Assembly (NCBI GenBank): GCA_963681505.1
Contig: OY811971.1
Span: 7,228,924 to 7,292,923, forward strand
Direction: 5' to 3'
Length of the DNA: 64,000 nt
Source of the DNA: Eunapius fragilis
Taxonomy: Eukaryota; Porifera; Demospongiae; Spongillida; Spongillidae
The notes below the pieces were generated by a model. It was not told where the DNA came from, searched no databases, and worked only from the letters and a program-made list of their open reading frames with translations. The position numbers and the translations under genes are program-made. Positions 4,000 through 56,699 of this stretch are shown piece by piece (the first letter of the stretch is position 1; each line of letters starts with the position of its first letter).

Positions 4000-6480
4000 T
4001 ACTGCCAAGATGGACATGGTGGCAGAACGCAGATGGTTGTACAACAATGGTTGTACAATTTTACAACGGTAGCAGATAAAAGGAGGGTGAGTGTTAACTA
4101 TGTAATTGCTGGTGTTAACAGCAAAGACAGTGTACAAATGAGCTGCAAACTCTTGGCAGGTACCTATATGAGCTCCTTGTTTTCTTTTCCCTAGCCTCCA
4201 CCAAGAAGCGGCCACACACTCTGCAACGCTCTTTGACTTTTGTTATGTGGTGCTCCATCCAAAGCAACACCTATTATTCATATAAACAAATGTCCTAGTT
4301 CTGAACATTGTATATATGCTCTCCCACGTGTGTTGTTGAGTGTTTTTAATCATGGATCCTGTTCTGTGGGTTAGTTCGATCGTACACCAAGCTTGAAGTA
4401 GACCCACCGAAGTTACATGGGCATAAATACTGGCTGCGTGTAACTATTAATCAAATCAGCTGCTCTTGCGCGTTGATACTTTTTTTTTTACTAGACTGGT
4501 AGGGTGTGTGCGGGAGCTATTTATTTGAGCGGAATTACTTAGAACATGTGGCTCGCCAAACAGACATGTATAATGCAAGGTACGAACATTACAGCTTTTG
4601 GCTTACATAGTATAGTCACATCAGACAAGAGTGTAACCTACCCGGCCACCCATACCTACACACCATCACATGTACACAGACCATCACCAACACACTATGA
4701 TGACATACCAGTACACCTCACACATGTGGATACTCAGCAGCAAAAATATGACCAAATGGCTGGATGTTATATTTTTACATGTACAGGCATCTGTATTGCT
4801 ACACACTCAACAGGTCAGTTTTTATAAAGTGGGAAGGAAAAGTTTACATAATCACCCACAACTACCTATATACATAGTTCTTATCTAAAAGACCAAGCCT
4901 CCTGTCTGCTTTCAGCAAGTCCATCAATACCAGCAACTATCCACATTCACACATACAGTTCTTACACCACCAAATACAAATGCCAAGCACACCACAAATC
5001 TACATGCATGCATCACATGAAGTCTGCAGAGAATTGTAGCTACTTGATGACCACACAAAGGCCGCAATGTCCCTTCTATATGAGTTGTTGCTGAAGCTTT
5101 TTGTCATGCTGGCTGTATCACATTGACCATACAGCCATCTAGGGAGCATTTCATGTGGAGTAGGAAAAATAAATAAAAAGAACTGTTAGTGTTCTTAGCC
5201 TATCCTGTTGATCACTACCCCTTTATGTTGGGCAGATGACCTCTGATAGGGGTAGGCTAAGAACACATGTAAGGCAGAATTATGGGTACATGTATGAAGG
5301 GAACTGCATATGGGAAAGTTTCCGAGAAAAGGGACCTAGCGTGTATTATAAAATAGCATAATAAAAATGCACCACGTTTGAAATGCTATAACTTCCGAAC
5401 GGTCAACGCTACCGTCTTCCTATTTTCAGCACTTCATAATACACCATTTCTCTATGATAAAATACATTTTGGGATCTTGAACATGCTCCATGCCAGTGTC
5501 GCGATGTCCGATACCCCTTGGGGTTCAAACTCCCCAAATCTTTCGGCAGGAAATCTCAATTCATTTCAAAATTGATTTATACGTAGAGGGATCCTGTGCC
5601 TATCGATTTGTCCTGTTCGTTAATTTTTACATTACCCGTTACAAAAATATTGCTTTGCAAAGTACGAACATATTTCCCGCTCGATTCGCGCCATTCTATG
5701 GCCAGAGACAGCATGAATATTAAACTCTTCCTGGCCTGTTGATAACCTATTACCACGCCTACAAGACCCTATTGCGTGATGGCGTTGCACATCGATCGTT
5801 GATTTGCTGTACAGCATACGGTAAGTTAAGATTGTCAACGTTCTTCGATGTAGGCACAGATAAGGCAGCATGGTGCCGTATAACACGAGTGGAGACGAGC
5901 CGACTCGTTAATTTGGTTGCAACGGTTAGGCCGGTACGATATTCAGGTCGAGGACGAGGACGGCGTGCATGGTTGAGAGCGTTGATGCTGATGACGATGG
6001 TAATAATGGCAATTTCGATGGTTATGATTGACGACAACGATGTTGACAAGAAATTTGATGACGGCGAGTCCAAGGTGAAGTGATAGTGGTAATGAAGGTG
6101 TTAATTGTAATGGAAGTTATGATAATGATGATGATGATGATGGTAGTGGTGGTGGTGGCTCAGGTGTGCGTTAAACCCGTCCAGCTGAATGTCTACCTCA
6201 CTAGAGAAGGTTACTGCAAAACAGCTGCTCAATGAAGTACGGTGATATGCTCACATTATAGATTGGCCAAGAAAACCAGAATGGTGCTGAGACAAGGGCA
6301 AAGGTCCTCATCTTGGCTTACACGTCCTTGTGAACTTTTGCACACACATGCATTGTTACTAGTACACCATTGTATGGCGTATTCCTGTACAAACACACAC
6401 ACATGCACATACATATCTTCACCCATATACACAAGCATTTTGTTCCATTTAACTCCTTGTATGTAATCTGTACCCCACTA
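4000..6480. other. No gene recognised
   Basis: AT-rich sequence with scattered short frames. It holds an imperfect hairpin near 5187-5266 (arms around TGTTCTTAGCCTA) and a GAT/GGT triplet run near 6121-6160. No exon could be supported. Confidence 0.4.
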
Positions 6481-51126: not shown

Positions 51127-51689
51127 TACTGTAGATGTTGACTGGTTGTTAAATTGTGTGATTGTTGAATTGTATGTGTGGCAGTTTACATGTATTAGTT
51201 GCTCAAGCAAACAATCTTTGCTTGATTTACTGTATTAACGTATTTTGATAAGAATGGCATGACTTTCATAAGAGAAGTGATATTTGGTTGTGTGTTGAAA
51301 TTTTGAGGAATGGGAATGGAACGCCAAACGTGTCAATAATCGATGTTATAAAATTGTATTGTTGCAATGATCGACTGCTTTTGACATTCAATGTTGCAAT
51401 AATCTATGCCGGAAACGCTGTTTAGATCAAAAATTAGGCACGTTAATCTGGTTGTGTTCGATGTAAGCTATTGATCATCGATCTGGCCCGTTGATGAGCG
51501 ATGTTGCCCATGGATCAGAACACGATTTTATGATTAGTTAAGGAAGGTAGCGATGAGTATTAAATATAATGCGAAGCCATTTGATTTGAATATTAACATG
51601 CCGCGTGAGCTAAACGTTACGCATACGTTACGTCGCACTGTATATTCAAGCCATTCTTGCGCGCAAGTATAATGCCACTGGCCGTGCTA

Positions 51690-52005
51690 GAATGGCTCGA
51701 GCCATTTCGGCACCAGAGGGCTCGAGCCATTCGGGAACGAACAGTTGCATTACCTTGAGTGCCAGAATGGCTCGCCATTCTGGCACGGGCATGCAGTTAC
51801 ATTACTTGCATGAGTGTAAGAATGGTTCGAGCCATTCTGGCAAGGCCAGTTGCATGACTTGAGTGCCAGAATGGCTCGAGCCATTCTTCATGGCACTCAA
51901 GTATTGCATATATGGCCGTGCCTGAATGGTTCGAGCCATTTCGACACTCCAGTAATGAACTGGCCATGCCAGAATGGCTCAAGCCATTATGGCACTCAAA
52001 TATTG
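51690..52005. repeat. Cluster of short palindromes GAATGGCTCGAGCCATTC
   Basis: About seven perfect or near-perfect copies of AGAATGGCTCGAGCCATTCT are spaced irregularly and joined by GTGCCAG, GGCACTCAAG and CCAGTTGCAT boxes. The cluster abuts the left end of the RecQ element but is outside its TIR. Confidence 0.8.
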
Positions 52006-52228
52006 TTGGCAAAACCGTGCTCTGAGCTACGTTTATGGTTTTCTGAGCTTAGTCTCGTACCCAGACCCACATCGCAGCTGCGGATGGACTACATCACCGC
52101 CTACGCGAGTAGTGGGTCTGGTGTCCTGTACAAATTTCTGTCCAGTTGCGCCGGAATGTTGTAGCGACCAATCAGATTTGAGGTATGCGCTAATTGCATA
52201 CTCTAGTTATCAATCGAAGTTATCGGTT

Positions 52229-53562
52229 ATGGCGGTAAGGCTAGAGATGGATGATGTACAGGTAATACGTGCGATTCAGTCGGCGGGTGAACGTATGGGG
52301 CATGAAAAAGGTAGGGACGAACAGTTCCGAGTCATCGAAGACGTGGTCCGTGGTCGGGACACGTTCGTAGCTTACCAACAGGATATGGGAAGTCAGTCTC
52401 TGTTACGGCGTTCTGCCATGGGTATTTGACGAGCTATCGAGGAATAGCACAAAGCGAAGCATCGTTATAGTCGTATCTCCCCTTATCAGTTTAACGGCTG
52501 ACCAGGTAGGTATATAGCTTAGTGAACTTGATTACTTCTTCTGTGGTTTTGTTTTACTCATAGATTAAGACGTTTTCGTCGAAAAGTTTAAATGTAGCAG
52601 CAGCCTCCGACAAAGCTAAGCAGGCTGATGTCATATCAGGAAGATGCCAGTTAGTTTACTTCAGCCCGGAAGAACTACTTTTAGTGGATCAGTGAAGGAC
52701 AATGATAATAAATTCAGTTTATCAGAGCAATCTAGTAGCATTCGTTGTTGGTGAAACCCATTGCATAACAAACTGGTTAGTCTATGCGTGTAGTGTCATT
52801 CCCTGAAAGCATAAACATGTCACTATTTTTCCCCCTGCAGGGGAAAGCGATTTCGGAAGGAATTTCACCAACTTGGTGATGTTGGTAGTCTCATACCATT
52901 GTCTACAACTGTGATGGCTCTCACTGCAACTGCCAGTATTGAAACACGGCAGGAGGTCATTAAGATTCTTGGTATGACCAATACATCTGTGCATGCTCTA
53001 TCGCCGCATAAGAATAACATCACGTACTGGGTTGGCAACAGAAAAGCACCCGACATATGTTTAAGTAGAGTTGTTCAGCAGCTCAAGGAGCAACGATGTG
53101 GATTACCTCGTATTATAATTTATTGTTCGAAGTACGAGGACTGCTGTATGTTGTATCGCTTTTTAAAAGTCTCATTGGGTGATCAGTTCACATACCCTAT
53201 TGGAGCTCCCCATTCAAGCCTAAGGCTGGTAGACATGTGCACTAGCTTGACCCGTGAAGATGTAAAAGAAGATATAATTAAACATTTTGGTGTCTCTGAC
53301 AGTCCCTTGAGAATGCTAATTTGTACTGCTGCATATGGCATGGGAATCGATTGTTCGAATGTACATCATTCACTGGGGTCCACCCGAAAGTATTGAAGCA
53401 TACATCCAGGAAAGTGGTCGTGCAGGACGAGATGGTAAACATGCTTGTGCATTACTACTGGTAAATGACAAAGATATTTCAAAGAAGTTCTTGCAACCTA
53501 ATATTGTAACGCACTGCAAAAATAGTAGTTTGCCGAAGATCTATTCTTCTTATGAGTTTTGA
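52229..53562 (+). pseudogene. RecQ-like helicase gene of the TIR element, degraded
   Basis: Exon 1 (52229-52505) has DEQFRVIEDVVRGRDTFVA, a Walker A LPTGYGKSV and VLPWVFDELSRNSTKRS, VVSPLISLTADQ, but in shifted frames around Walker A. Exon 2 (52564-52775) has SGRCQLVYFSPEELL, a stop, then AFVVGETHCITNW where RecQ enzymes have DEAH. Exon 3 (52841 on) has FRKEFHQLGDVGSLI, VMALTATA (motif III), IIIYCSKYEDCCMLYRF (IV), MLICTAAYGMGIDC (V) and, after a shift, YIQESGRAGRDG (VI). There is no RQC or HRDC domain. The loss of the DEAH Asp and the frameshifts show it is dead. Confidence 0.82.
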
Positions 53563-53809
53563 TCCAGTGGGCTTTAGAAAGGATTGTATGGGATGTACTG
53601 TATGTGTTGTGATGTATCTGCTTGTGAATGCATGTGTACATCTTGTGTCTGCTCTACTTTTTTTTATCCCTGTCTGATATTAAACATTAAACATACCCTT
53701 TATGTGAATTGAAACAAACACCTTACACTAAACCTCCACTTATCACATACACATTTACACAGTCAGCGATTAAGAAATGACATCTCAAGCCGGAGTAAAA
53801 ATTGTTTTT

Positions 53810-56480
53810 TCATCCATGTCTTAAGCTTATTACTGTCGATGGTGTAAAATAAATTAGCAGCAAAGTTGGGAAAGGATTGGTGGTATCGCCCTGGAACAAA
53901 ATCAAACACTGATGCTTATGCAGCTCAGTAACCATCGCTATTACATCTTTGTCATCAGAGTATGCTTTGTGCGACGATGAATTTAAAGGAATACTGAAAA
54001 TGTCTTCCGTGGTATCCATCAATCTAACTATAATTCCAAGTGCTTTACACATCTTGGTATGGAAGTAGGTGTTTTGTTTGCACCCAGGTGTGTAACAGCC
54101 AATTTACACATTCTGTTTAAATGTTCCATATGCAGGTCTGCTGGTATGTTTCGGCCCAGTCCACCATGCGAGTTTACAAATCGCCCCCAAATTAATTGTT
54201 CAGCAAGTCTAGGAGTAAATTGATAGTAATAATGTTTCAGTAGTGTCATAGCCTAATTCGTGATTGGAACCATAAAAACAATTATTTCCATCTGATCACT
54301 CACTCTATGACCATCTCCCTCTCTTATTGCATCTTGGAATTCTAAGTAAAATAGCCCCATGGTCATTACCTCCTTAGCATACTCCTGTTTGTGATCCAAG
54401 TGGGCTGCTTTATAGCTTGTTCTGTAGCTAATGTCAAAAAACTGATGAACCAATAAGTCAGCAGCTGCAAGCAGAATTGTGGTTATATCAGCAATATCAT
54501 GATCTTCATGGTCTGGTGGGAAGATGTTTTCGTCTGGCCTACTGTCATGACTCTCCATTCCAAACAGGCTGATAGCAGCTGCTATGATGGGTGAACGAAC
54601 AAAGCTTAGGAAAAAATCCTCACAAGCATTCACATCTTTGTCTGGTTTATTTCGGACATTCCTCCTGTTGATCAAATTTCTTAACTGATACATAGTTCCT
54701 TTGTTAGATGCGCTGGAATATTTATACAATCTTGACCAAATAAAGTAAATTGAGTTGTGACTGTGATGACATGCTGTCTTCCTCAGCTGAAGTGAGATCA
54801 TCATCATTTTGAAGATATGACATAAGCTCTGTCTGAAAAGAATCATCGCCAGTATTACAGCCACCATCATCATAGCAATTGTTGCCATTGTCTAACTTAT
54901 CATCATTACATCATTAGGATGTGTAACATCATCTCTTTCATCAGCATCACAATCTGATCACATTCCTCATCACTACCTCCATCTTCATCACCACCATCTT
55001 TATCGCCACCATCATCACCATAATAATCATCACCTCCAATACAATCATCTTCACCATCTGATTCACAACCACTACCACCATCATCACTATCATTGTCATC
55101 ATCACCCTCACCAGCCTCTTTATCACCATCACTGGCATCTTTATCACCATCATTGCCACCATTATGGCAGCAATCTAAGGAACATTTGGCATGCAGTGTC
55201 AATTTTTGAATGGAGATGAAATGCTTACAGAAGTAATCATTACCTGTTGAATTGTCAAATGAGTTTGCTGACACTGCAAAGGTATAGAATGAGACCAGCT
55301 TTCCTATACATTGCACAGGAAAAACGTTTACTATTAAAAGTATGCACAATTCTGCCCGGTCTCAAATAACCTGATCTGCTAGCAGCAACAACTTCAGATG
55401 GTTTATATGCTGTACAAGTTCTTCATCATGATCCTTTCCAAGATCAGCTATGATTTTATGTACCCAAGTATGGGACAAACAAACCCCAACCTTTTGCCGA
55501 AGTATTTCAAAGATCTGTGGATGGGTATACATACAATACAATGGAAGTAACCTGATTATTGCCCATGAGCAAATATCATGCACTTACGGATTTGCTTGCA
55601 AGTCCTGCATATAACGAAATTGATACTAGCTTCTGAAAAATCGTTGCCACCTTTCTGTTTGCCTTTGTCAGTACAGATATGCACATAAGAATCATAGGAA
55701 GTCCATCATGGTGATCTATGGAAGATCTAGGGATACAAGACTTAAACAGGGCAATCATTACTGGTGTGTGTATCTCTCTCTATAGCTCTTTCTGTAGTCT
55801 TGAGAGGGTGAGGGAACACAAATTCTCTTTTCTTAATTTGTATCCAGAAGAATGGGAGTGGATTTAAGAGCCATTATCTCCATTCTTACTGCTTTGGAAA
55901 TAAGTTTAATATATACATTTTGCATTTTACTATGCTTCAAAGAATATTTTGCCAAAGCATCATATCGGCGACGACCTAATACTATACCCATTGCTTTTCT
56001 GGAAGGCGTCAGATGGTATACCCGCGAGCCAGACGGGTAATCAACTTCTATCTGTAGCAAAAAAATGTATAAAAGAATGCATGCATCTGCATGCATAGCT
56101 TACGTTTACCTTGACTGGAGTAGCTTCGCTTGTGAAAGATGATTCCAAACGCTGGCGTTTTGGATCGGGTGTAATTCTACCCGCTGAACAGATAGTAGGT
56201 AAGAATGAAGACGCGAGCTCCCTAAGTTGCTGCTGGGTTGAAGACAGATTTGTCTTGAGCTTGTGCAGCTTATCTCCTACTCTCCAACGCGACCTGCAGA
56301 TGCATCCTTCAGCAAAGTAACGTGCCGCGGTATCATAATCCTGGATTCCAAGTCACGTTCATTGCTAAGCGTACTGGTAATTGCTTCCTTTATATGGGAA
56401 GATACTGTACTGAGAAGGGATCGACTCTTTTGCTCCAGTAATGTATTTGCACCACACAGCTTGCAATTATCCATGACACG
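53810..56480 (-). pseudogene. DUF6589-type gene of the TIR element, degraded
   Basis: Reading downward: MDNCKLCGANTLLEQKSRSL and, after a shift, YFAEGCICRSRWRVGDKLHK (four-Cys zinc region), PDPKRQRLESSF; exon VDYPSGSRVYHLTPSRKAMG; exon DHHDGLPMILMCISVLTKAN; exon IFEILRQKVGVCLSHTWVHK. Then an acidic GAT-repeat tract, then NKGTMYQLRNLINRRNVRNK, VNACEDFFLSFVRSPIIAAA, MGLFYLEFQDAIREGDGHRV, LIWGRFVNSHGGLGRNIPAD followed by LHMEHLNR. This order matches a family I know from sponges, corals and fungi as DUF6589. The usual middle part with a G-D-Q-L-T box is missing and replaced by the acidic tract. I suspect a transposase; unproven. Confidence 0.65.
54890..55170 (-). repeat. (GAT)n-like acidic tract
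   Basis: Imperfect ATC/ACC triplets, coding for DGDKDGGDEDGGSD-like sequence on the minus strand. It sits where the DUF6589 core should be. Confidence 0.8.
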
Positions 56481-56699
56481 CGTTTCTAAATAAAGCATTA
56501 ACACACTAATTGCATTGTTGCGGAAGATAATATTATTCATACATGACGTAACTGCATTCCTCCCGACGTTGGAATGTAAGTATTATGTAATCGCTGGACA
56601 GAAATTTGTACAGGACACCAGACCCACTACTCGCGTAGCGGTGATGTAATCCATCCGCAGCTGCGATGTGGGTCTGGGTACGAGACTTTTCTGAGCTAT

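Follow-up and report, generated by a model that had tools for sequence, protein, structure and literature searches.

What kind of mobile element carries a RecQ-type helicase gene and a gene of the DUF6589 family, a Pfam family of unknown function, between one pair of inverted ends? The question is raised by a locus of the sponge Eunapius fragilis, located in a 64,000-nucleotide stretch of contig OY811971.1 (assembly GCA_963681505.1, positions 7,228,924 to 7,292,923 of the forward strand), here called the window. A degenerate copy of a whole transposon, 4639 bp long, occupies positions 52050..56688 of this window. It is most likely a dead transposon of the AcademH type with a DUF6589 transposase, a likeness drawn through the helicase, duplication length and ends described for AcademH rather than through transposase sequence. 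Helicase-bearing elements of this kind have very probably been described already; naming DUF6589 as the transposase may be what is new.

Ends of the element and target-site duplication

The boundaries of the element were fixed by comparison with 25 other two-ended copies from the host genome (219 Mb in 24 contigs), in which all genome-wide searches were made. The complete set of 26 comprises the window copy, 22 elements from fetched loci, two members of a second family (C4 and C3) and one further coding copy (C2). The right end of the copy in locus L022, where the repeat match started at base 3, was shifted by two bases by hand, and an extra single end in L025 was left out of the element count. 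The element starts with TAGTCTCG and ends with CGAGACTA. A T precedes AGTCTCG at the start of all 26 copies, and the last base is A in 25 of the 26. The left terminal inverted repeat, beginning TAGTCTCGTACCCAGACCC, spans 52050..52145 (+ strand) according to self-comparison of the window and comparison of copies; the right one spans 56594..56688 (- strand) and has T as its final base in the window alone. An earlier reading of the window from sequence only had claimed inverted ends of 93 bp. These are borne out at about 95 bp (52051-52145 against 56594-56687), the two arms being 98% and 100% complementary.

The same sequence-only reading took an 11-base identity, TTTTCTGAGCT at 52039-52049 and 56687-56697, as the target-site duplication. 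The identity is there, but the duplication is the 9-bp TTCTGAGCT at 52041..52049 and 56689..56697, both copies being defined by flank identity and copy comparison and the left one also by empty sister sites. With the ends set by terminal sequence, the nine bases on either side agree in 25 of 26 two-ended copies. A duplication of 11 bp is therefore rejected, and the two extra T are left-flank bases that match the last two bases of the element's own right end by chance. Flank lengths of 5-8 and 10-13 match only in one copy, inside an uninformative G-run. The sole exception is C2, which sits in a TG-rich repeat and has no match at any length from 5 to 13. The duplicated 9 bp have no fixed sequence across copies.

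Genes of the window copy

Two gene remnants lie tail to tail inside the element, and profile matches confirm them as the convergent RecQ-type helicase and DUF6589-type genes of the sequence-only reading. The helicase remnant (52229..53562, + strand, the start being a frame reading and not a gene model) holds motif I at 52378, motif II at 52750, motif III at 52923 and motif VI at 53416. It matches the profiles recQ_fam (5.2e-16, 52815-53396) and recQ (1.6e-11, 53320-53562); Helicase_C fell below the profile cut-off in this copy. When one piece of the helicase was compared with solved structures, the best match was the ATP-dependent DNA helicase 1oyw (7.4e-9), with RecQ, WRN and BLM chains lower. 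The DUF6589 remnant, the putative transposase gene, is placed at 53810..56582 (- strand), with outer limits taken from frame reading. Its profile matches (2.2e-7 and 3.2e-6) lie at 54064-54768. Among the conserved boxes that had been ascribed to it, DLHMEHLN is found near 54126; GDQLT and DWH occur in no minus-strand frame of the window copy and are present in longer relatives.

Stop codons interrupt both genes. The helicase frame shifts just before motif I, and motif II reads GETH instead of the expected DEAH. Some of the frame changes may be introns. As judged from its reading frames, both genes of the window copy are broken and the element is dead. An imperfect ATC/ACC-rich repeat at 54906-55200, within the DUF6589 remnant, would code for a long acidic run.

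Pairing of the two genes across the genome

The association of RecQ with DUF6589, which had been put forward as possibly general, is general in this genome. A search for DUF6589 (PF20231), in which the best 102 of 215 candidates were scored, gave 116 matches that group into 90 loci, some of them fragments. The best 30 loci were fetched with 1500-bp flanks, and at 30/30 a match to the window's helicase lies downstream on the opposite strand; in L056 and L057 this match is short, 28 residues only. A search for RecQ (TIGR00614; best 26 of 886 candidates scored) gave 25 loci; at 21 of these, L056 and L057 included, a convergent DUF6589 locus is no more than 1 kb away. The remaining four, more than 170 kb from any DUF6589 locus, probably represent RecQ genes of the host itself. 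Within the 1500-bp flanks, which are too short for most ends, none of the 30 loci shows the inverted repeat of the window element, and one, L036, has the terminal 15-mer with up to two mismatches. Compared with 145 listed proteins, the DUF6589 loci reach 31-65% to those of Ephydatia muelleri where these are the best matches and up to 99% to others. A divergent DUF6589 group (L049, L050, L051 and L055), in which DLHNEHVN replaces DLHMEHLN, is likewise paired with RecQ.

Comparison of coding sequences indicates that selection acts on both genes in at least one sister-family pair. The ratio of nonsynonymous to synonymous substitution rates (dN/dS) between L050 and L056 is 0.14 for DUF6589 and 0.21 for the helicase, and in the closer pair, L050 and L055, it is 0.23 and 0.32; the ten DUF6589 pairs stem from a single set of related loci and cannot count as independent, and the RecQ values come from hand-trimmed reading frames of four loci (a first RecQ run gave no pair in range). 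Selection on the helicase supports the earlier proposal that it is an accessory gene of the element.

Coding families with the same ends

Five loci (L044-L048) have an identical DUF6589 score, and two of them, C4 and C3, were read to their ends. C4 (5074 bp) and C3 (5094 bp) suggest that the lineage was recently active in this genome, because they are 99.5% identical and occupy different sites. Their inverted repeats are 87 bp long, perfect, and start with TAGTCTCGTACCCAGACCC as in the window, and their 9-bp duplications are ACCATAGAT and GGCGCAAGG, respectively. Both contain long open frames for both genes, and the helicase of C4 has the domains Helicase_C (4.2e-14) and RecQ zinc-binding (6.3e-6). 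One TAG falls within the DUF6589 profile match in each of L044-L048; it may lie in an intron, and C4 and C3 may be intact. Among the 30 loci, the coding copy closest to the window element is C2 (5354 bp); it has the same start and end sequences and is about 70% identical to the window element in DNA along stretches of the two genes. A common end sequence is hence found in three coding families (window, C4/C3 and C2). The sequence-only reading would have been refuted by DUF6589 and RecQ genes never occurring together between such ends; C4/C3 and C2 carry both.

DUF6589 as a likely transposase

Structure prediction makes it likely that DUF6589 is a DDE transposase. When the predicted structure is compared with known structures, the top matches are the transposases of the P element and Hermes, with modest scores. 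This supports a DDE enzyme and agrees with the earlier view that DUF6589 is the transposase. Kinship with transposase families missing from the list of matches is compatible with this result. The rows of that list other than transposases (clamp-loader subunits, receptors, proteasome and others) correspond to different regions of the protein or to short stretches. The predicted fold, an RNase H core with a helical insertion, would be the likeness to P element and hAT (Hermes) elements, which differ in their 8-bp duplications, against 9 bp here, and are not known to carry a RecQ gene.

In a first DUF6589 model, residues 236-293, which hold GDNVD, had a predicted local distance difference test (pLDDT) score below 50. 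A second model, built on an alignment richer in full-length rows, shows a strand at GDNVD. Since the structural match begins upstream at this strand, a D-D-E set made of GDN[VI]D, GDQLT and HMEHLN appears more likely than the GDQLT, DWH and EHLN set first proposed; GDQLT and the EHLN box keep their places, and DWH gives way to GDN[VI]D. Foldseek alone gave no match at E <= 0.001 for either model, and the A2 profile found none among PDB sequences at E <= 10. A Pfam-A scan of the DUF6589 proteins P0007 and P0011 (E <= 0.1) returned DUF6589 only; no MULE transposase domain was among the results, which is compatible with distant kinship. Pattern searches of viral contigs gave 31 matches, none of them a relative. 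The open-licence literature searched contained no link of DUF6589 (PF20231) to transposons.

Relationship to known transposon lineages

AcademH is reportedly the helicase-encoding lineage of the Academ superfamily, and XPG is the nuclease of AcademX. A passage of a 2013 paper names a "RecQ Helicase in Academ" (PMC3627910). In an excerpt from 2023, duplications of 9 or 10 bp are given for AcademH and of 3 or 4 bp for AcademX, and are tied to the encoded helicase or nuclease (PMC10045372). A further excerpt places AcademH in fungi and counts Helicase_C and DEAD among domains from AcademH, KolobokH or Helitron (2024, PMC10799480), and curated bivalve Academ elements average 5565 bp in a section of another source (PMC10294476). 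The statement of the sequence-only reading that no described superfamily joins RecQ to a DUF6589-type gene is contradicted by these passages, in which RecQ in Academ is in print and AcademH duplicates 9-10 bp.

As far as these sources describe it, AcademH resembles the sponge element in encoding a helicase, with RecQ being named for Academ, beside a separate putative transposase. It also resembles it in its 9- or 10-bp duplication (9 bp in 25/26 copies here, one of them in a G-run) and in its terminal inverted repeats (about 95 bp in the window, 87 bp and perfect in C4/C3). AcademX belongs to the same superfamily and is described as differing from AcademH by the 3-4-bp duplication and a nuclease instead of a helicase; it was rejected for the window element on the 9-bp duplication. 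A genome search for XPG_I found two places, both more than 100 kb from the nearest listed DUF6589 match, a weak test in which exons were searched apart.

An unlikely arrangement, though the most probable of the rivals to the AcademH reading, is that DUF6589-RecQ elements form their own superfamily outside Academ, with their own ends, a fixed 9-bp duplication and an obligate helicase, and are like AcademH only in helicase and duplication. That no DUF6589 paper was found in the open-licence literature searched speaks for such a separate standing. Against it, two independent descriptions fit Academ: the RecQ helicase and the 9-10-bp duplication of the helicase lineage. If the elements did constitute their own superfamily, the DUF6589 proteins in public databases would be its unrecognised transposases.

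It is very improbable that the helicase drives mobility, for instance by a Helitron-like copying route, with DUF6589 as the accessory. This idea can draw on the helicase match at 30/30 loci and on the conservation of the helicase frame in one family pair, but inverted ends and exact 9-bp duplications are features that typically go with DDE strand transfer, and Helitrons are not known to make either.

A KolobokH-type element, consisting of a Kolobok transposase and RecQ, is hardly credible. KolobokH does encode RecQ beside its transposase, and in a red-alga Kolobok the RecQ gene lies on the opposite strand, just as in the sponge element; however, Kolobok duplicates TTAA (4 bp), against 9 bp without fixed sequence in the sponge, and the KolobokH lineage is reported from fungi only (PMC9587614). 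KolobokH was rejected on duplication length, provided that the 4-bp length applies throughout Kolobok.

Copies elsewhere in the genome

A genome search with the left end, in which 40 of 938 candidates were scored, gave 42 matches. Besides the window copy, these were 39 copies of 93-97% identity and two weak pieces. The best 20 of the 39 close copies were fetched, and both ends are present at all 20 loci; two further elements with more diverged ends (80-84%) in L011 and L014 bring the total to 22 besides the window. The genome contains 2173 occurrences of the terminal 17-mer and none of its reversed control. Given this count and the 39 other close left-end copies, the shared ends are not due to chance. 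Among 100 listed places of the 17-mer there are 29 adjacent facing pairs less than 7 kb apart. Nineteen of these are 54-206 bp long (e.g., C1:320284-320416) and are likely miniature non-autonomous elements with the same ends.

The fetched copies also supply evidence that tells against the gene pairing. The helicase and DUF6589 genes are missing from all 22 two-ended elements of the 20 fetched loci, and matches to the window element are limited to the first ~70-390 bp and the last ~70-330 bp, the centres having no match. Ends enclosing unrelated DNA, which the sequence-only reading had itself named as a refutation, are thus seen in 22/22 fetched elements. They are outweighed by the pairing at 30/30 loci and by the second family. 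A short piece near element position 4038-4121 is kept in 17/22 copies. By position, the first 390 bp cover the start of the helicase gene, and the 4038-4121 piece falls in the DUF6589 remnant. Because most of the 22 retain scraps from the 5' portion of each gene and the pairing holds independently in other families, they are read as non-autonomous relatives. The absence of the genes from all 22 would also suit host genes trapped between unrelated inverted repeats, an explanation with almost nothing left to it, as the convergent pair stands at 30/30 best DUF6589 loci, common ends occur in three coding families, and C4/C3, with perfect ends and duplications, refute it.

The longer non-autonomous copies in L018, L022 and L011 (2.7-5.8 kb) enclose DNA without a match to the window element, and L022 has repetitive reading frames. 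A protein-family search with two of the longest copies gave no clear family.

Proposed mechanism and significance

For an AcademH-type transposon with a DUF6589 transposase, the DUF6589 protein would be an RNase H-fold DDE enzyme with a long helical insertion, as in P element and hAT transposases. It would recognise the common TAGTCTCGTACCCAGACCC ends and join the element to target strands at cuts 9 bp from each other, leaving the 9-bp duplication; we infer DDE catalysis and a cut-and-paste rather than a copying route. The RecQ-type helicase, as an accessory, would probably open or remodel the ends or the strand-transfer intermediate, or aid later repair, and the short copies would be mobilised in trans.

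A Pfam family of unknown function would in this way gain a concrete role, as the likely DDE transposase of transposons that carry a helicase. The two genes stay together in different families of one genome, and the apparent recent activity makes the role of a RecQ helicase in DDE transposition testable.

Insertion site and flanking sequence

When the flanks of the window element were joined via a single TTCTGAGCT and compared with the genome, with 40 of 109 candidates scored, at least eight further places matched without a break over the junction, at 77-84%. Five of these were aligned; each continues through the junction, where a single TCTGAGCT stands, and lacks the element. The exact 9-mer of the window is found in 0/5 aligned sites, the first base being different, and a 4-base gap beside the insertion site distinguishes all five from the window. 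The empty sites are sister copies of the invaded host repeat, not alleles. A 17-bp near-repeat beside the left end is part of this host repeat. Further copies and empty sites, to which the sequence-only reading had looked for confirmation, were therefore both found: 39 other close end copies, at least eight junction matches and five aligned sites that are empty.

A second site, at 52262..52270 (- strand), is empty in the window and filled in the sister copy L011 by a 789-bp relative with the 9-bp duplication ACGTATTAC. The relative is inserted in the body of the sister element, and the window copy represents the unfilled version of the site. Directly to the left of the window element, at 51614-52010, is a cluster of short palindromic units around GGCTCGAGCCATT, part of which matches many clustered places elsewhere in the genome.
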